A stretch of 35,355 nt of DNA from the NCBI GenBank assembly GCA_025450815.1, contig JANWLO010000193.1, positions 1 to 35,355 of the forward strand. The letters run 5' to 3'. Position 1 is the stretch's first letter, and the number at the start of each line of letters is the position of its first letter. Position numbers and translations under genes: made by a program. Shown piece by piece: positions 1,857 through 35,145 of the stretch. This stretch comes from Gemmatimonadaceae bacterium. Lineage in GTDB: Bacteria > Gemmatimonadota > Gemmatimonadetes > Gemmatimonadales > Gemmatimonadaceae. The notes beneath the pieces were generated by a model. The model saw only the letters and a program-made list of their open reading frames with translations. It searched no databases and had not been told where the DNA came from.

Positions 1857-1860
1857 GACA

Positions 1861-2253
1861 TAGTAGACGATCTATAAGCCGGGTTCAGTCGAATGATGTC
1901 TCATTCGGACGGTCATTTCTCTCCGCACACGATCGCTCGCGTGCTCTAGCAGCCTACCCGCGGCGTCTTGATCGAGGTGGGCCACCCCTCGCCGCTTATT
2001 TGGCCTTGCTCCGACCGGGGTTTACCATGCCGTAACCATTACTGATTACGCGGTGAGCTCTTACCTCACCTTTTCACCCTTACCGAACTGTATTTCTACA
2101 ACTCGGCGGTTTGTTTTCTGTGGCACTGTCCGTCATCATCTTCTTGCAAGCAAGTAGATAGTGCCCAGGCGTTACCTGGCGATCTGCCCTCTGGAGCCCG
2201 GACTTTCCTCGATGGGATTTGACTCTCATCGCGACCGTCCAATCGTCTACTAC
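1861..2253 (-). ncRNA. rnpB: RNase P RNA (bacterial type A-like)
   Basis: This is the catalytic RNA of RNase P, which trims the 5' leader from pre-tRNAs. Read on the minus strand it has the conserved 5' block GAGGAAAGTCCGGGCTCC and the 3' block ACCCGGCTTATAG. The ends form helix P1: TAGTAGACGAT near 2252 pairs with ATCGTCTACTA ending at 1861. The length of about 390 nt fits the family. A TATATT -10 element 7 bases upstream of the 5' end and a strong terminator just past the 3' end bracket the gene. Short open frames crossing this stretch are incidental. Confidence 0.95.
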
Positions 2254-27579: not shown

Positions 27580-28287
27580 TCAACGCTTCTTCTTCGACTT
27601 CCCGTCGTCCTTCCTCTCCTCGGTTCGCGGCGGCATCGCCGGCGTCGCGCGCTTCGCGAGCACGCGCTGCACATCCGAAAGCGAGCCACCCGCAGCACGC
27701 AGCGCGACCAGCGCATGGTACAGAAGGTCCGCCACCTCCTCAGTCGCCCTGGGCAAGTCGCCGTCGGCGCACGCGGCGATGAGCTCCGCCGCTTCCTCGC
27801 CGAGCTTCTTGAGGCGGAGATTTCGATCCTCGAGGAGCTGCACGGTGTAGCTCTGCTCGGCCCGCGCATCCTTTGCCTTGGGCAGATGCCGAGCGTGCTG
27901 GTTGTCCACCTCCGCGGTTGCTGCGCGGCCGGCGATGGTGGCGTCGAGGGCGGACAGCGCGTCGCCCATTGATTCGGGGCCGACGAAGCACGAGATGGAC
28001 CCCGTATGACACGCGGGGCCGTTTGGCACCACGCGCGCGAGCAGCACGTCGCCGTCGCAATCGCACGCGAGCGATACCACGCGCTGCGTGTTGCCGCTCG
28101 TCGCGCCCTTGTGCCAGGGGCCGCGCGTGCGAGAGAAATAGTGCATCTCGCCGGACGCCAGTGTGCGCTCCACGGCCGCGCGATCGGCATGGGCGACCAT
28201 GAGAACCATTCCGCTGGCCGCGTCCTGTGTGACCACGGTGACCAGGCCGCCGTTCTTGTCGTAATCCAAACCCGATAGATCAAGCAT
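27580..28287 (-). CDS. hisIE: Bifunctional phosphoribosyl-AMP cyclohydrolase / phosphoribosyl-ATP pyrophosphatase
   Basis: Steps 2 and 3 of histidine synthesis in one 235-residue chain. The N-terminal HisI domain shows HYFSRTRGPWHKGATSGNTQ, the metal-binding CDCDGD and HTGSISCF; the C-terminal HisE domain shows LKKLGEEAAELI and EEVADLLYH. A Lys-rich tail follows. ATG 28287 lies one base past the stop of the HisN-type gene. A long competing frame on the same strand across this region only makes sense at its murB end. Confidence 0.96.
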   Translation of the reverse strand: MLDLSGLDYDKNGGLVTVVTQDAASGMVLMVAHADRAAVERTLASGEMHYFSRTRGPWHKGATSGNTQRVVSLACDCDGDVLLARVVPNGPACHTGSISCFVGPESMGDALSALDATIAGRAATAEVDNQHARHLPKAKDARAEQSYTVQLLEDRNLRLKKLGEEAAELIAACADGDLPRATEEVADLLYHALVALRAAGGSLSDVQRVLAKRATPAMPPRTEERKDDGKSKKKR

Positions 28288-28288
28288 G

Positions 28289-29074
28289 CTAACCCCTCAC
28301 GATGCCGGTCTTGAGCAGCGACCGTGATTCGGCGGCGACGCCCTGGTTGGTCGCCACGGCACTCCCTCCAAATGCGGTGCGCGCTCCCATCCAATCGGTG
28401 AACACGCCCCCGGCCTCCTCTACGATGGGCATGAGCGCCGCGGCGTCCCACGGCGACATGACGCCGTCTACCATGACCTCCGCCCTCCCTGTCGAGACTA
28501 GCAGATAGCCATAGCAGTCACCCCAACTACGGCTGAGGCCCGCGCGGCCCGCGAGCTCGATCCACCCGGCGCGCTGCACCGGGTCGCGGGGGAAGCGTTC
28601 GTTGGTGGTCAACACGGTAGCGTCGTGCAAAGTTGCACAGGAGGAGACGCGGCACCGCGCGCCGTTCCACCAGCAGCCGGCGCCCGAGGCTGCCGCGAGC
28701 ATCTCGCCGACCGCGGGAAAGTACGCAGCTCCGGCCAGCACCCGCTCCCCCTCGCACAGCGCCACGAGCGTTCCCCACAACGGCACGCCACGAATGAAGG
28801 TCTTCGTGCCATCGATGGGATCCAATATCCAGCGACGCACGGCCGTCGGTCGCGTGACGCCGAGCTCCTCTCCCAAAATTCCATCGGCCGGAAAGCGACG
28901 CTCAATCCAGTCGCGCGCGGTCTGCTCCGCTTGGCGATCGGCGATTGTCACCGGTGAGCCGTCGGCCTTCGTCTCGACACTGATCGACGAGCGATAATGC
29001 TCGAGCGCGACATCTCCGGCGAGGCGAGCCACCTGCTCGACCGCGCCGGCGAGCGTATCCGGCGTCTCACTCAT
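28289..29074 (-). CDS. hisN: Probable histidinol-phosphate phosphatase, inositol-monophosphatase family
   Basis: 261 residues of the Mg-dependent IMPase fold: GEELG (metal 1), WILDPIDGTKTFIRG (metals 1 and 2) and SPWDAAALMPIVEEAGG (metal 2). Family members hydrolyse inositol phosphate, PAP or histidinol phosphate. Its place inside the his operon, and a hisB with no phosphatase domain, point to histidinol-phosphate phosphatase (HisN). The ATG at 29074 overlaps the hisF stop as ATGA. The specific substrate is inferred from context. Confidence 0.9.
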   Translation of the reverse strand: MSETPDTLAGAVEQVARLAGDVALEHYRSSISVETKADGSPVTIADRQAEQTARDWIERRFPADGILGEELGVTRPTAVRRWILDPIDGTKTFIRGVPLWGTLVALCEGERVLAGAAYFPAVGEMLAAASGAGCWWNGARCRVSSCATLHDATVLTTNERFPRDPVQRAGWIELAGRAGLSRSWGDCYGYLLVSTGRAEVMVDGVMSPWDAAALMPIVEEAGGVFTDWMGARTAFGGSAVATNQGVAAESRSLLKTGIVRG

Positions 29075-29832
29075 GCAACGAGCCGGATTGGAAGACCCGC
29101 CGCGGCGAGCAGCTGCTTGATCGCGCCAACTGTGGTCGAACCATCGTGAAGGATTCCCGCGACGAGCGCCGCGTCGGCGTTTCCCGACTCGAGGACCTCG
29201 CGCACATCGTTCGCCGAGCCTGCGCCTCCCGACGCGACGATGGGCACGTCGACCGCCGCGGAAACCGCGCGCGTGAGTTCGAGATCGTAACCGGAGCGCG
29301 TGCCGTCGCGATCGATGCTCGTCAACAGAATCTCACCAGCGCCGTGCGCGACGCACGCGCGCGCCCACTCCACCGCATCGAGCTCCGTACGCGTGCGGCC
29401 ACCGTGCGTATACACCTTCCATCCTCCCGCCTCGCGCCTGGCATCGATGCTGGCGACGACGCACTGCGCACCGAATCGCGCCGCGGATTCGGTGAGCACC
29501 TCCGGCCGCGCGACCGCCGCGCTGTTGATGCTCACCTTGTCCGCGCCCGCGCGAAGCGCCCGCGACACGTCATCCGCAGTCCTGACGCCGCCACCCAAAG
29601 TGAGCGGAATGAACAGACGCTCGGCAGTTCGACGCGCGACATCGAGCAGTGTCGCTCGTTCGTCCGCCGTCGCCGAGATGTCGAGGAACACGATCTCGTC
29701 CGCGCCCTCGGCTTCATAGCGAGTTGCGAGCTCTACCGGATCGCCGACCTCGCGCAGATGGACGAATCGCTCGCCCTTCACGACGCGCCCACCCTGAACA
29801 TCCAGGCAAACCACCACTCTTCGTGCGAGCAT
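29071..29832 (-). CDS. hisF: Imidazole glycerol phosphate synthase, cyclase subunit
   Basis: 253-residue TIM barrel that, with HisH, converts PRFAR and ammonia to IGP and AICAR. The catalytic Asp11 region is VVVCLDVQGGRVVKG and the second Asp is in TSIDRDGT; LTLGGGVRT and IVASGGAG are the phosphate-binding loops. The start is ATG 29832, whose A is also the last base of the hisB TGA (TGATG), so translation is probably coupled. A longer frame through hisB is not real. Confidence 0.96.
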   Translation of the reverse strand: MLARRVVVCLDVQGGRVVKGERFVHLREVGDPVELATRYEAEGADEIVFLDISATADERATLLDVARRTAERLFIPLTLGGGVRTADDVSRALRAGADKVSINSAAVARPEVLTESAARFGAQCVVASIDARREAGGWKVYTHGGRTRTELDAVEWARACVAHGAGEILLTSIDRDGTRSGYDLELTRAVSAAVDVPIVASGGAGSANDVREVLESGNADAALVAGILHDGSTTVGAIKQLLAAAGLPIRLVA

Positions 29833-30374
29833 CACGTGACCTCGAGGCCAACGGCGCCCTTGGTGCTGAACACTCCCGCATCGCCATCTGCAGCGAGTGC
29901 CTTGCGCAGCGCGGCGCCGAGCGCCTTGAACGCCGCCTCCACAATGTGATGCCGGTCGCGCCCGCGCAGCACGCGCAGGTGAATCGTCGCGTGGGCGTTG
30001 TCGCTGAACGAGCGAAACCAGTGGTCGTACAGATTGCTGGGGAGCGGGCCGCAATAGTACGGCCGGCCGCCGAGGTCGAGCGAGACGTGGACGAGCGCGT
30101 CGTCCATGGGGATGACGCAATCGCCGTAGCGCGCCGCGCGCGGGGGTACGATCGCTGCGAGGGCGGCGCCGAGCGCGATCGCGACGTCCTCGATGAGATG
30201 ATGACGGAGGTCGCCGCGCGCGGTGACCGTGAGATCGAGCGATGAGTAGCTCGCCAGAGTCACGAGCATGTGGTCGAGAAATGGGACCGTGGTAACGATG
30301 GTCGATGCGCCGGTGCCCGCCGCCAGCTCGATCCGGATCTGTGTCTCGCGAGTGTTGCGAACGACGATGGTCAT
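29832..30374 (-). CDS. hisB: Imidazoleglycerol-phosphate dehydratase (monofunctional)
   Basis: 180 residues, the dehydratase only; unlike the E. coli protein it has no histidinol-phosphatase domain, which the HisN-type gene downstream probably replaces. Metal-binding repeats are visible: FLDHML, LRHHLIEDVAIALG and RDRHHIVEAAFKALGAALR. ATG 30374 is chosen; upstream codons in the frame lack similarity. It lies 16 bases past the hisA stop and overlaps hisF by one base. Confidence 0.95.
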   Translation of the reverse strand: MTIVVRNTRETQIRIELAAGTGASTIVTTVPFLDHMLVTLASYSSLDLTVTARGDLRHHLIEDVAIALGAALAAIVPPRAARYGDCVIPMDDALVHVSLDLGGRPYYCGPLPSNLYDHWFRSFSDNAHATIHLRVLRGRDRHHIVEAAFKALGAALRKALAADGDAGVFSTKGAVGLEVT

Positions 30375-30390
30375 CGTGCATGCTCCAGAT

Positions 30391-31104
30391 TCATGATGCG
30401 AACTCCTCCGCCACCGCGCGCGCGTCGAGCGCACCTGTGTAGAGCGCCATCCCGATGACGGCGGCCGCGATCCCACGTTCCGCGAGCTCACGTAAATCGC
30501 CGACGTTTGCGATGCCGCCGGACGCGATCACCGGATGCACCGAGAGCTCGGCGACGTCTTCCATGAGAAAGAGATCGGTGCCGGCGAGCTGTCCTTCGCG
30601 ATGCACGGCCGTAACGAGCACGCCGCCAAGAGGAATATCGTTCAGTCGCTCGACGACGTCGAGCACCGTGCGGTCGAGCGTGCGACTCCAACCGCGCGTG
30701 ACGACGTGGCGCTCGCGCACATCTGCGGCGACGATGAGTTGGCCGGGAAAGGTGGACGCGGTTCCCGCGAGCCACTCCGGTTCTTCCAGCGCGCGCGTGC
30801 CGAGCACGACCCACTGGGCGCCCTCGCCGAGCAGGCGCTCGACCGTGTCGCCGCTGCGAACGCCGCCGCCGGCCTGCACGTTTGCGGGCACCTCGCCGAG
30901 GATGTCGCGCACGATGGCGGAGTTGTCGCCTCGTCCGGTGGCAGCATCGAGGTCTACGAGGTGCAGGCGCTGAAAGCCGGCGCGCGCCCAGCCGCGCGCG
31001 ACCTCGAGCGGATTCTCGACGCGAAGCTGCTCGTGCGCGTACGATCCACCCACGAGCTGAACGCATGCACCATCGCGCAGGTCAACGGCGGGAATGGCGA
31101 TCAC
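30391..31104 (-). CDS. hisA: ProFAR isomerase (HisA)
   Basis: 237-residue TIM barrel catalysing the Amadori rearrangement of ProFAR to PRFAR. The N-terminal strand is IAIPAVDLRDGACVQLVGG with the catalytic Asp; the C-terminal half has VIASGGIANVGDL, and VQAGGGVRS is a phosphate loop. GTG 31104 is chosen because the barrel begins there and it overlaps the hisH stop as GTGA; the frame continues upstream without similarity. hisA and hisF are homologous barrels. Second in the pentose-to-imidazole part of the operon. Confidence 0.95.
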   Translation of the reverse strand: MIAIPAVDLRDGACVQLVGGSYAHEQLRVENPLEVARGWARAGFQRLHLVDLDAATGRGDNSAIVRDILGEVPANVQAGGGVRSGDTVERLLGEGAQWVVLGTRALEEPEWLAGTASTFPGQLIVAADVRERHVVTRGWSRTLDRTVLDVVERLNDIPLGGVLVTAVHREGQLAGTDLFLMEDVAELSVHPVIASGGIANVGDLRELAERGIAAAVIGMALYTGALDARAVAEEFAS

Positions 31105-31700
31105 GAACCCACCTCGCGCAAAAAGGCCCGAATGAGCTCGACGCCGGAGCGCGAGCTCTTCTCCGGATGAAATTGCACGCCGACCGTGCGCTCCGCACGC
31201 ACGAACGCCGGGAAGGTCGTGCTTCCGTGAGTGCTCCACGCGCGAACGCTTGGGATATCGATTGGGTCGCAGACGTAGCTGTTCGCATAGTACGCGATTG
31301 GCAGGGGTGCGGCATCGAGGAGCGGGTCAAGCGCGTTCTCGATGGTGTTCCACCCGATCTGAGGAACGCGTTCGCCCTCGAGCTTGCGCACGCGTCCGGG
31401 AAAGACGCCGAGCCCGATGCCGGGGCCCTCGTCGCTGGCGTCGAAGAGGAGCTGCATGCCGAGACAGATGCCGAGACATGGCAGTCCGGCATCGATCGCG
31501 GCGCGTACGGCGTCGCGACCGGGCGCGAGGCGTGCTGCGGCGTGGCCGAATGCGCCGACGCCGGGGAGAACGAGCACGTCGGTGTCTTTCGCAGCGAGCG
31601 ACGGGTCGGTTTGCGTCTCCACGCGGCAATCGTCGCCCGCGAGCGCCTTGAGGAGAGAATGGAGGTTCCCTGCCCCGTAGTCGAAGATGGTCACCTTCAT
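31101..31700 (-). CDS. hisH: Imidazole glycerol phosphate synthase, glutaminase subunit
   Basis: 199-residue class I amidotransferase giving ammonia to HisF. Nucleophile Cys in GLPCLGICLGMQLL, catalytic His/Glu in GVQFHPEKS; N-terminal IFDYGAGNLHSL is typical. ATG 31700 overlaps the fused hisD-hisC stop as ATGA, and its own stop overlaps the hisA GTG. Confidence 0.97.
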   Translation of the reverse strand: MKVTIFDYGAGNLHSLLKALAGDDCRVETQTDPSLAAKDTDVLVLPGVGAFGHAAARLAPGRDAVRAAIDAGLPCLGICLGMQLLFDASDEGPGIGLGVFPGRVRKLEGERVPQIGWNTIENALDPLLDAAPLPIAYYANSYVCDPIDIPSVRAWSTHGSTTFPAFVRAERTVGVQFHPEKSSRSGVELIRAFLREVGS

Positions 31701-34063
31701 TGCGCCACCGCATCGCGAAGCGCGGCGAGTGCCGTCTCCATCATGGGCCAGGGACCGAGCGTGATGCGCACGCCGTCGCCCACTCCGTACACGGCGGGGA
31801 ATGGCCGAACGGCAACGCCGGCCGCGCGCATGCGCGCCGAGACCACGGCGGCATCGAAGACCGGGACGAAAACGAAGTTCGCTGTGGAGTCGAGCGGCTG
31901 CATTCCCAGGGCTCGGAGTGCATCGATGAATCTCGCTCGATTGACGATCGCATTGCGCACGTTCGCGCGCATCCAGTCTATGTCTTCCCGGAGGGCGGCG
32001 AGCGCTGCGCGTTCCGCTGCCGTGCCAACCATGTACGGCCCGCGCGCCTTCTCGATGGCGAGGATCAGCGGGGCAGCACCGGTGGCGTAGCCAACACGAA
32101 GTCCGGCGAGGCCGAACGCCTTGGACATCGTGCGCGCAACGACGAGCCGAGTGAGTGACGGCGCACGCTCTACCCAGCGCGCCCCGGAAAACTCCGCGTA
32201 AGCCTCATCGATGATTACGATGCCCGCCGCATGCTCGATCAATCGTGCTAGCCGTTCTGGTGCGACCGAGCGTCCGGTCGGATTGTTGGGCGAGCAGATG
32301 TAGGTGACTCGCGCGCGCGCCGCGAGTAGCGCGTCGACGTCGACCTCATGCCGGCTGGTCATGGGCACCGGGGTGGCCACGAGCCCGTTCATGCGCGCGA
32401 AGAGCGGCAGCATCCCGAACGTCGGCTCCGGATACGCGAGCGAATCGCCCGGCTCCGCGAACGCGCGAATTGTGGAATCGAGGATGTCGTCGGAGCCGCA
32501 GCCGGTAACTACTTCGCTCGCGCGAACGCCCGCGTACTCCGCGAGCGCCGCCTTGAGCGCGGTCGCGTACACGGTCGGGTAGCGCGTGATCGCGCCGGCT
32601 TCCAACTCGCGCAGCTCCCGCGCCGCCGCGGGCGCCGAGCCCCAGCGATTCGTATTGTCGCTGAGATCGAGCGCGCAGGGCGCGCGCTTCGGATCGTAGA
32701 GCGAGAGCTCGCGGATCGTCGCTCGCGCGGTGACGACTCTGCGCGAGCGAGTCTCTCCATCCTCCGTCGCGATGTCCCCGCCCGCAGCCGCCGCGGAGTG
32801 CGCCGGCAGTCCCTCCGCGCGCGCGAGCACTGCGACGTCCGCGGCAAGCGCCGCGGCGCCAGCGCGCGTGACGCGCTGATACGTGGTCCAGCGCACGAAA
32901 TCGAGCGTCGACAGTCCCGAGTACGATCGCGCGAGACCACCAGTGGGCAGCACGTGGTTGGCGCCGGTCATGTAGTCGCCGAACGCAACTGAGCTCGTGC
33001 TGCCGAGGAATACCGTGCCGGCGTTGCGCACTCGTGTCAGTGCTTCGTCGGGGTCGCGCACTGCAAGCAGGAGGTGCTCCGGCGCGTACTCATTCGCGAG
33101 CTCGATCGCGTGCTCGAGCGACGGCTCACAGAGCAGCGCGCCCCGTGTCGCCAGCGCCTCGGCGATGATCGCGCTCCGCGGCTCGGCGGCAAGCATCGCG
33201 CGAACGCACTGCTCGATCTCGCGTGCGACGCGCTCGGTGAGCGCCAGGACGACGACTGCCGCGCGCGGGTCGTGCTCCGCCTGCGCCAACAGCTCGCGTG
33301 CGACGCCTGCTGGCGTGCACGAGTCGTCCGCGATGACGAGCAACTCGCTCGGGCCAGCCGGCGAATCTATTCCCGTGATTCCCGCGACCTGCAGCTTCGC
33401 CTCGGCCACGTAGGCATTGCCGGGGCCGACGATGCGGCGCACGGCGGCGATGGACGATGTGCCGTACGCCATCGCGGCGATGGCGCCTGCACCGCCGATC
33501 GCGTAGACCTCGTCGACGCCCGCCAGCTCGCCGGCGGCGAGGACGACCTGCGACGGGAGCCCGTTCCGCGCGGGTGGTGAGCAGAGCACTACGCGAGGAA
33601 CTCTGGCGACCTTTGCGGGGATGACGCCCATAAGCACGCTGCTCGGATACGCGGCGCGACCGCCCGGCGCGTACACGCCCACGGAGTCGAGCGGATCCGC
33701 GCGTCGGCCGACGACGACGCCTGGCTCGACCTCGATCTCAGACGTGCGCGGAAGATAAGTTCGATGAACCGCCCGAATGTTCGCGGCTGCGTGCTCGAGC
33801 GCCTCGCGGACTGGCACGTCGAGGGTCGCGAGCGCGCGTGCACGCACGTCGCGCGGCACCGCGAGATCCTCGAGTGCAACGCCATCGAGCTCGGACGCGA
33901 TGGCGCGGAGCGCCGCGTCGCCACTGGCGCGGACGCGAGCCACGATCGCGGAGGTGCGCGCCCGTACGTCCGCATCAGTGGAGGTGGAGCGCTCGCAGAG
34001 GGCGATGCGGTCGGCGGGCGAAAGGGAGCGGAGGCTTCCCTGCCATCGGAAGATCTCGCTCAC
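31697..34063 (-). CDS. hisDC: HisD-HisC fusion: histidinol dehydrogenase + histidinol-phosphate aminotransferase
   Basis: One uninterrupted 788-residue frame encoding two enzymes. Residues 1-428 are HisD (two NAD oxidations of histidinol to histidine, Zn-dependent): IDSPAGPSELLVIAD, zinc ligands Gln261, His264, Asp363 and His422, catalytic Glu329/His330 (APEH). Residues about 450-788 are HisC (PLP aminotransferase): YPEPTFGM, CSPNNPTG, IIDEAYAEF (Asp619), Schiff-base Lys648 in TMSKAFG, Arg656 and Arg766. A linker of about 20 polar residues joins them. Both parts look complete, so this is a true fusion and not a decayed gene. GTG 34063 overlaps the hisG stop (GTGA). Confidence 0.95.
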   Translation of the reverse strand: MSEIFRWQGSLRSLSPADRIALCERSTSTDADVRARTSAIVARVRASGDAALRAIASELDGVALEDLAVPRDVRARALATLDVPVREALEHAAANIRAVHRTYLPRTSEIEVEPGVVVGRRADPLDSVGVYAPGGRAAYPSSVLMGVIPAKVARVPRVVLCSPPARNGLPSQVVLAAGELAGVDEVYAIGGAGAIAAMAYGTSSIAAVRRIVGPGNAYVAEAKLQVAGITGIDSPAGPSELLVIADDSCTPAGVARELLAQAEHDPRAAVVVLALTERVAREIEQCVRAMLAAEPRSAIIAEALATRGALLCEPSLEHAIELANEYAPEHLLLAVRDPDEALTRVRNAGTVFLGSTSSVAFGDYMTGANHVLPTGGLARSYSGLSTLDFVRWTTYQRVTRAGAAALAADVAVLARAEGLPAHSAAAAGGDIATEDGETRSRRVVTARATIRELSLYDPKRAPCALDLSDNTNRWGSAPAAARELRELEAGAITRYPTVYATALKAALAEYAGVRASEVVTGCGSDDILDSTIRAFAEPGDSLAYPEPTFGMLPLFARMNGLVATPVPMTSRHEVDVDALLAARARVTYICSPNNPTGRSVAPERLARLIEHAAGIVIIDEAYAEFSGARWVERAPSLTRLVVARTMSKAFGLAGLRVGYATGAAPLILAIEKARGPYMVGTAAERAALAALREDIDWMRANVRNAIVNRARFIDALRALGMQPLDSTANFVFVPVFDAAVVSARMRAAGVAVRPFPAVYGVGDGVRITLGPWPMMETALAALRDAVAQ

Positions 34064-34917
34064 GGCATGAGCCTCTCGATGCGGGTGACGAGGATTCCCT
34101 GGGCACCGAGCGATTTGAGATCAGCGATCGTGCGATAGATCGCCGACTGCGCGACCACTGCGTGCACTGCCACGAACTGGTCGCCGTCGAGGATATCAAT
34201 CACCGTAGGCCCGTTGACGCCGGGCATCACGCGGCGCACGCTCTCGAGCGCCACGCGTGGCACGTTCGCCATGACGTAGCGCTTGTCGCGCGCGCGCAAA
34301 ACGCTCGACAGCGCAGCCGCGAGCTCGCTGGCTGCGCGCTCCGCCGCGGCTGCGGGCGTTGGCGACGCGATGAGGCGCGCGCTCGACTCGAGGACGGTTG
34401 CGACTTCGTGGAGCTGGTGTACGCGAAGGGTGGAGCCCGAGGAGGTGAGATCGACGATGATGTCCGCGATCCCCAAGTGCGGAGCGATCTCGGTGGCGCC
34501 AGACACCGGCACGATCGTGACCGGGCGGCCAGCGCGAGCGAAGAATTGGCGAGCGAGATTGGGGAAGACGGTCGCCACGCGAGGAGCGTCGGTGATGTCC
34601 TCGAGTGTCGCGATGCCGCTGTCGTCGCGGGCTGCGACGACGAGTCGGCAACCTCCGAACTCGAGGTCGAGGAGCATGCCGAGGTCGCGCCCGGACTCGC
34701 GGACGAGATCCCATCCGGTGACGCCGACGTCAGCCGCGCCGTCGGCGACGAACTCCGGGATGTCCCGGGCGCGAACGAGGATCGCCTCGAACTCGCCGCC
34801 GAGTGATGCGAGGAGAGCACGCTCGCCGTGGGCGCGTACTTCGAGGCCGGCATCACTGAAGAGCTCGCGTACGTCTTCGGAAAGGCGACCCTTGTTGGGG
34901 AGCGCGACTCTCAACAT
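34060..34917 (-). CDS. hisG: ATP phosphoribosyltransferase, long form
   Basis: First, feedback-regulated step: PRPP + ATP to PR-ATP. At 285 residues it is the long hexameric type with a C-terminal ACT-like regulatory domain (ending PTVIDILDGDQFVAVHAVV), so no HisZ is needed. Motifs: RVALPNKGRL at the N-terminus, ADVGVTGWD, and the PRPP loop DIIVDLTSSGSTLR. ATG 34917 is followed by the family start; the upstream GGGA touches the ATG, so the Shine-Dalgarno site is poor. A 13-codon frame (34952-34911) ends over the hisG start and may couple translation. First structural gene of the his operon. Confidence 0.96.
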   Translation of the reverse strand: MLRVALPNKGRLSEDVRELFSDAGLEVRAHGERALLASLGGEFEAILVRARDIPEFVADGAADVGVTGWDLVRESGRDLGMLLDLEFGGCRLVVAARDDSGIATLEDITDAPRVATVFPNLARQFFARAGRPVTIVPVSGATEIAPHLGIADIIVDLTSSGSTLRVHQLHEVATVLESSARLIASPTPAAAAERAASELAAALSSVLRARDKRYVMANVPRVALESVRRVMPGVNGPTVIDILDGDQFVAVHAVVAQSAIYRTIADLKSLGAQGILVTRIERLMP

Positions 34918-34970: not shown

Positions 34971-35000
34971 AAAAAAGGCCCGTCCGGAAATGGACGGGCC
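34971..35000 (-). terminator. Attenuator terminator of the his operon
   Basis: Minus strand: GGCCCGTCC (35000-34992), 6-base loop, GGACGGGCC (34985-34977), then TTTTTT (34976-34971). A perfect 9-bp GC-rich stem plus six T: a strong rho-independent terminator. It lies between the His-rich leader peptide and hisG, so it would stop the his transcript before its first gene. Confidence 0.93.
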
Positions 35001-35065
35001 GAAGACGCCGGATTGCCTGAGGTGTTAGCCGATCACCTTGGCAAGCACGCGACGCCCCGACCCGT
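34994..35065 (-). promoter_or_regulatory. Antiterminator pairing of the his leader
   Basis: ACGGGTCG (35065-35058), inside the leader peptide just after its His codons, can pair over 8 bases, one a wobble, with CGGCCCGT (35001-34994), which contains most of the terminator's 5' arm. That pairing would enclose the hairpin at 35013-35044 and exclude the terminator. Pairing is by eye; energies were not computed. Confidence 0.6.
35013..35044 (-). other. Central hairpin of the his leader
   Basis: Minus strand: TTGCC-A-AGGTG, 9-base loop, CACCT-CA-GGCAA: ten pairs with a small internal loop. The leader peptide's TGA stop is in the 5' arm, so a ribosome completing the peptide would open it. Confidence 0.7.
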
Positions 35066-35110
35066 GAGGCCGTGGTGATGCGTGGGGTGGTGGCGAGCGA
35101 TCATCTGCAT
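35033..35110 (-). CDS. hisL: His operon leader peptide
   Basis: A 25-residue peptide, start ATG 35110, stop TGA 35033-35035. Residues 7-13 read HHPTHHH: five His codons in seven, the hallmark of histidine-attenuation leaders. A second ATG is codon 3. There is no room for a ribosome binding site: the predicted transcription start is the A of the ATG itself, so the peptide is probably translated leaderless. It ends in the central hairpin, 33 bases before the terminator stem. It is the histidine sensor: ribosome stalling on His codons would favour read-through (known mechanism in enteric bacteria; inferred here). Confidence 0.88.
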   Translation of the reverse strand: MQMIARHHPTHHHGLTGRGVACLPR

Positions 35111-35116
35111 GGGTTC

Positions 35117-35145
35117 AACGTAGAACATTGCTGCGGGAGCGTCAA
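35117..35145 (-). promoter_or_regulatory. Promoter of the his operon
   Basis: Minus strand TTGACG (35145-35140), exactly 17 bases, TACGTT (35122-35117). Seven bases downstream is 35110, the A of the leader-peptide ATG. Good sigma70-type spacing and -35. Confidence 0.78.

Follow-up and report, generated by a model that had tools for sequence, protein, structure and literature searches.

The window, by which the whole 35,355-nt stretch analysed is meant, comes from an incomplete genome of a Gemmatimonadaceae soil bacterium (2.9 Mb, 68.5% complete). It contains a complete histidine biosynthesis pathway made up of hisG, a hisD-hisC fusion, hisH, hisA, hisB, hisF, hisN and hisIE, with murB following (Table 1). 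The HisG protein is 85-88% identical to records named Gemmatimonadaceae or Gemmatimonadetes. The hisD part of the fusion corresponds to residues 39-426 (TIGR00069, above cut-off) and the hisC part to residues 447-783 (TIGR01141, below its cut-off). A class A RNase P RNA is also found in the window (1859-2250, minus strand). The pathway lies downstream of a short leader frame on the minus strand, the ATG of which precedes hisG by 193 nt.

Table 1. Positions of the his leader elements and his genes in the window.
Feature	Position	Strand	Basis
-35 element TTGACG	35140..35145	-	sequence; TTGAC common among related leaders
-10 element TACGTT (17-bp spacer; 6 nt before ATG)	35117..35122	-	sequence
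Leader peptide ORF, MQMIARHHPTHHHGLTGRGVACLPR and stop (25 codons; predicted leaderless)	35033..35110	-	conserved His run; no Shine-Dalgarno
First regulatory His codons (7-8)	35087..35092	-	sequence; ribosome-position model
Second regulatory His codons (11-13)	35072..35080	-	sequence; ribosome-position model
Segment 1 of protective (anti-antiterminator) hairpin, CACGC, within His region	35080..35084	-	minimum-energy fold; swap test, 58 leaders
Partner of segment 1, GCGTG	35046..35050	-	minimum-energy fold; swap test
Antiterminator segment ACGGGTCGGGG	35055..35065	-	core conservation; pair counts across leaders
Antiterminator partner CTTCGGCCCGT, overlapping terminator 5' arm	34994..35004	-	complementarity; pair counts
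10-bp hairpin overlapping stop codon	35013..35044	-	present in predicted fold (5+5 bp around small internal loop)
Intrinsic terminator (9-bp stem, six T)	34971..35000	-	9 pairs, 8 GC; alignment of relatives
hisG	34060..34917	-	TIGR00070, above cut-off
hisD-hisC fusion (one frame, 788 aa)	31697..34063	-	NCBIfam matches
hisH, hisA, hisB, hisF, hisN, hisIE	27580..31700	-	NCBIfam matches

A preliminary description of this region proposed a his-operon attenuator, and the parts that it named are present. The consensus-spaced promoter (TTGACG-17-TACGTT) and the 25-codon His-rich frame (ATG at 35110, stop codon at 35035-35033) both occupy the minus-strand positions proposed for them. Between this frame and hisG, the first gene, lies the intrinsic terminator, in which GGCCCGTCC and GGACGGGCC flank the loop ATTTCC (35000-34977) ahead of TTTTTT (34976-34971). 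The hairpin at the stop codon is likewise found; it is outside the family-wide consensus structure and is possibly a pause hairpin. An 8-base segment (35058-35065) had been suggested to pair with the 5' arm of the terminator. The pairing holds, with a segment longer than proposed: ACGGGTCGGGG and CTTCGGCCCGT are complementary over 11 bases (35065-35055; G-U pairs counted). In the region upstream of the his promoter, the window has the sequence CAAATTGCAA at about 35182-35168. The palindrome TTGTGAAnnTATTCACAA is found just upstream of the his -35 element in many Gemmatimonadaceae (L010, L014, L017, L019, L023, L025, L056, L060 and L063), and by its sequence is operator-like for a putative transcription factor (ARG-box-like).

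The arrangement is widespread. A hisG gene was identified in 106 of 149 relatives, and the same layout is found upstream of hisG in 58 distinct relatives, which form the aligned set. Nearly every Gemmatimonadaceae genome has TTGAC, about 17 nt, TAnnnT (with 6-7 nt as the commonest distance to the start codon), 5-10 nt and ATG or GTG, followed by a 17-32-codon frame containing a His run, by CGGGYCGGGG, a stop codon and the GGCCCGTC terminator with a T run. A covariance model built from the 58 aligned leaders and searched in 259 genomes of the phylum (E-values up to 0.01) has matches in 173 Gemmatimonadota genomes, the weakest of which may be false. Its matches adjoin hisG in other families too (Pfam HisG). 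Some relatives differ. The L032 locus (genome G035) has no his leader upstream and its hisG seems to start directly after a promoter, while the leader at L069 is degraded. The his leaders at L071, L215, L217 and L219 carry an altogether different terminator. The one at L219 contains GTTGATGGT, a match to ACCATCAAC next to its terminator, and its antiterminator thus seems to have been rebuilt. In the genome of the window, at its 68.5% completeness, the his leader is the only leader found; the weak model matches there (L222-L230) have the look of ordinary coding sequence or promoters and were rejected as leaders.

The spacing of promoter and start codon bears on how the leader frame is translated. 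Exact TTGAC together with a -10 element (xAxxxT) at a leaderless distance is found in 99 of 126 leaders, compared to 8 of 12600 shuffled upstream sequences (0.06%). The start codon lies within CATG in 87 of the 126. Shine-Dalgarno-like tetramers show no enrichment (8% of leaders, 10% of hisG starts), and hisG starts likewise seem to do without a Shine-Dalgarno sequence. Promoter spacing gives strong, indirect support to the leaderless initiation proposed in the preliminary description, predicting a transcription start at or within a few nt of the start codon and a his leader peptide that is leaderless or nearly so (5' UTR of 0-3 nt). Alternatively, the attenuator could be real and be transcribed from a start further upstream with an ordinary 5' UTR. 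The window -10 element agrees with TATAAT at just 3 of its 6 bases, a generic promoter scan lists no promoter at the window leader, and the spacing of 9-10 nt in some relatives permits a UTR of 1-3 nt. Against the fixed distance of TTGAC and the -10 element from the start codon, the frequent CATG and the missing Shine-Dalgarno sequence, this alternative is unlikely. The weak -10 element is outweighed by conservation, as is the mild fold score of the window leader (only mildly better than shuffles; z = -2.05).

Pairing within the leader RNA is constrained. In the 58 leaders, 83% of antiterminator cells are paired (37-54% when slid by 1-3 columns), with six pairs changed on both sides, and 93% of terminator cells are paired (22-52% when slid). 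Compensatory changes, which the preliminary description had suggested looking for in relatives, are found in both stems, and the His run is kept as well. The antiterminator duplex scores -21.9 with native and -20.2 (SD 0.30) with swapped partners. For the protective hairpin, formed between the His region and a segment after the core, the values are -18.4 and -16.1 (SD 0.34) in the 58 leaders; none of 5000 permutations is as good as the native pairing. Across 127 leaders of all types, the leader scores -19.4 with its own terminator arm, -17.7 with foreign arms and -14.8 when shuffled. Kinship among the leader sequences makes these permutation values optimistic. Arm and leader can be seen by eye to change together: GTCC occurs with GACGGG, GTGG with CCACGGG, GTGC with GCATGGG, TCGG with CCGAGGG (L254) and CGATTCGC with GCGAGTCG (L267). 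Complementarity and covariation thus point to an alternative antiterminator that would be exclusive with the terminator. The antiterminator core CGGGYC is nearly invariant in the 58 leaders. In 10 of them it lies in another reading frame, changing the peptide (for example, HGSRAGA instead of HGPTGRG) and leaving the nucleotides unchanged, which argues that the constraint acts on the RNA. Between the His blocks the commonest codons are GCG, GTG and ACG, as the predicted protective helix would favour.

Histidine is also under selection. The leader frame is a short ORF rich in codons for the amino acid of the downstream operon: the best 9-codon window contains 4-8 His in 62 Gemmatimonadaceae his leaders and usually 1-3 in shuffled upstream regions. 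The His codons (302 CAC, 244 CAT) are mixed within the same columns, indicating selection on histidine as well as on the RNA. Conservation of an RNA-level element (CGGGYC with GGCCCG) would also be expected if the leader sensed something else, such as a tRNA through a T-box, a riboswitch ligand or an RNA-binding protein, with the His-rich frame being incidental. This is very improbable, as an Rfam search of the window leader returns no T-box or riboswitch match and the codons track the pathway (His at hisG, Tyr/Phe at DAHP synthase, Phe at pheA, Asn at asnB and Leu at leuA). The same search, which the preliminary description had called for, finds no fitting model: his_leader (RF00514) is not matched at the gathering threshold or at E-values up to 10. 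Rfam matches over the terminator at a relaxed threshold (anti-hemB, suhB and others) are all below the gathering score and are attributed to chance. HHxHHH resembles metal-binding tags, yet it is scarcely credible that the frame encodes a small metal-binding peptide with its own terminator and hisG downstream by chance, as the leader recurs at hisG across many genomes at a fixed distance and there is no protein conservation after the His run, where the frame shifts while the RNA stays.

The effect of ribosome position was modelled with a 30-nt footprint, on RNA that extends through the terminator loop. For the window leader, placing the A site on any of codons 3-12, the first His pair among them, gives a predicted antiterminator probability of about 0.98-0.99. 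This falls to 0.5 at codon 13 (the last His codon) and to less than 0.1 for codons 14-24, with values of 0.11-0.12 for codon 25 and the stop codon. Mean predicted values for the 58 leaders are 0.82 at the first His, 0.85 at the second His, 0 on the motif, 0.42 with the ribosome at the stop codon (where the motif is partly free) and 0.39 with no ribosome. The model therefore agrees with the earlier proposal that stalling at the first His pair would free the antiterminator segment and that fluent translation would cover it. In the window leader the antiterminator is predicted to form first when no ribosome is present (0.98); many relatives differ in this (median 0.22). Termination may therefore fail in the window leader if translation is lost. 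At the modelled equilibrium of the full-length RNA, even a stalled ribosome leaves the terminator as the preferred structure (mean probability 0.84); antitermination would thus have to be kinetic, with the choice made ahead of completion of the 3' arm. In leaders whose motif stays free when a ribosome is at the stop codon, termination presumably relies on ribosome release and the protective hairpin.

We infer the following course of events. RNA polymerase would start at or beside the A of the leader ATG, and a ribosome would load straight onto the 5' end of the RNA. When charged tRNA-His is scarce, the ribosome would stall on the His codons and prevent the His region from pairing with 35050-35046 in the protective hairpin. 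This would leave ACGGGTCGGGG free to capture the nascent CTTCGGCCCGT, such that no terminator forms and the operon is transcribed. When His-tRNA is ample, the ribosome would either reach codons 14-25 and cover ACGGGTCGGGG, or finish and allow the protective hairpin to form. With ACGGGTCGGGG covered or sequestered, the terminator would fold and transcription would end near 34971. The best reading of the leader is thus ribosome-mediated transcription attenuation of the his operon, with a leader peptide that is leaderless or nearly so (5' UTR of 0-3 nt); we assign this reading a probability of about 0.88. The interpretation in the preliminary description is supported on almost every point.

The finding reaches well past a single operon. 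The same his leader is found before hisG in Myxococcus xanthus, Corallococcus, Pyxidicoccus, Archangium and Hyalangium and in 'Candidatus Eisenbacteria' MAGs. HisG proteins of these loci are about 65-72% identical to that of the window, and it is a reasonable guess that operon and attenuator were transferred together horizontally. Myxococcus-like and Gemmatimonas-like his loci are also found in L099 (Comamonas sp. KCTC 72670) and L149 (Candidatus Kuenenia stuttgartiensis), records which are probably mislabelled or contaminated.

Secondary matches of the his model, together with matches of a second model, have the same promoter-start layout with sensing codons other than His. Tyr/Phe leaders precede DAHP synthase (L182, L183, L192, L193, L198, L199, L248-L250, L253, L254, L258 and L272) and a chorismate mutase/prephenate dehydrogenase pair (L262; tyrA named only from reading its translation). 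Phe leaders precede prephenate dehydratase (L186, L242, L268 and L274). Tyr-rich (Tyr/Phe) leaders are found before phenylalanine hydroxylase (L188, L195, L197, L201, L239 and L261), which suggests that this enzyme serves tyrosine synthesis in Gemmatimonadota. Single candidate cases are a Thr leader before aspartokinase (L214) and an Asn leader before asparagine synthase (L267; asnB named, like tyrA, from its translation). Leu leaders precede leuA in L288 and L270 (the L270 peptide being read by eye). On examples, Pfam confirms DAHP synthase, Biopterin_H, PDT, AA_kinase and HisG; the loci in G020 and G174 have LeuA_dimer. The regions upstream of eleven trpE-like loci, from ten genomes, yielded neither a Trp leader nor a terminator. 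Two further loci (L216 and L273, family f2) have a leader-like short ORF (MTKCACNPKMLLTGNHLGEAGAS) and a terminator before a HAD-type phosphatase gene. Model matches before an infC-like gene (L269 and L275) have a conserved leader and terminator and no evident sensing peptide; this element is perhaps an infC autoregulatory leader. On balance, the evidence leans towards a Gemmatimonadota-wide set of leaderless amino-acid attenuators, largely one CGGGYC/GGCCCGT cassette that spread by copying or arose by convergence and was adapted to sense His, Tyr/Phe and Thr (with Asn and Leu as variants), including the Tyr leader before phenylalanine hydroxylase, and with a his unit that moved with hisG between Gemmatimonadota, 'Eisenbacteria' and Myxococcaceae.

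The enteric his operon attenuator (Rfam his_leader; PMC3896937, PMC9413887) shares with these leaders a His-codon leader peptide, a terminator and an antiterminator that exclude each other, the his operon as its target and the ribosome-stalling logic. It belongs to another phylum and has seven His in a row, whereas the Gemmatimonadota ORF is predicted to be leaderless and has its His in two blocks (HHxxHHH), and the window leader has no his_leader match even at E-values up to 10. The preliminary description regarded sensing through a leaderless frame as unlike the textbook case; this is true of enteric his attenuators but is not new among bacteria, given the leaderless attenuator peptides of Sinorhizobium meliloti trpL (PMC7298713) and of Streptomyces lividans leuL, trpL, ilvL, metL and thrL (PMC8079986). 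S. meliloti trpL RNA begins at the ATG of the leader ORF, as predicted here, and its attenuation yields a small leader RNA; it differs in sensing Trp, in belonging to the Alphaproteobacteria and in serving one operon. Mycobacteria have leaderless polycysteine sORFs (PMC8764745, as cited in PMC13236596). The S. lividans and mycobacterial leaders also sense several amino acids through leaderless short ORFs; in the portions of these sources available, no His leader is listed, several leaders are without a clear intrinsic terminator and no common CGGG/GGCCCG cassette appears. Outside Proteobacteria, His leader peptides before his genes are known from Firmicutes, as candidates in the Bacillus cereus group, Eubacteriales and Erysipelotrichales (PMC9413887) and at hisS/hisZ of bacilli (PMC2965389); the available text of these papers reports no leaderless start. 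A literature search, with most subscription journals outside it, returned no paper linking Gemmatimonadota to leader peptides or attenuation, in line with the earlier statement that no described example was known in this phylum, and no description of attenuation in Myxococcus. Because leaderless attenuator peptides and his attenuators are each known, the novelty lies in the phylum, the leaderless his case and a design shared across pathways; this combination, its breadth and its phylum appear undescribed.

These leaders offer an initial picture of how amino-acid genes are controlled in Gemmatimonadota. They also add leaders that sense Asn, before asparagine synthase, and Tyr, before phenylalanine hydroxylase. 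Most work on attenuation, a textbook mechanism, has used ordinary enteric leader ORFs, with few leaderless cases. Here a whole phylum seemingly relies on leaderless ORFs for attenuation, which would open ribosome loading at the 5' end and its coupling to RNA polymerase to study in dozens of natural variants. As Myxococcus xanthus has a version of the his leader, the mechanism may be tested in a tractable organism.
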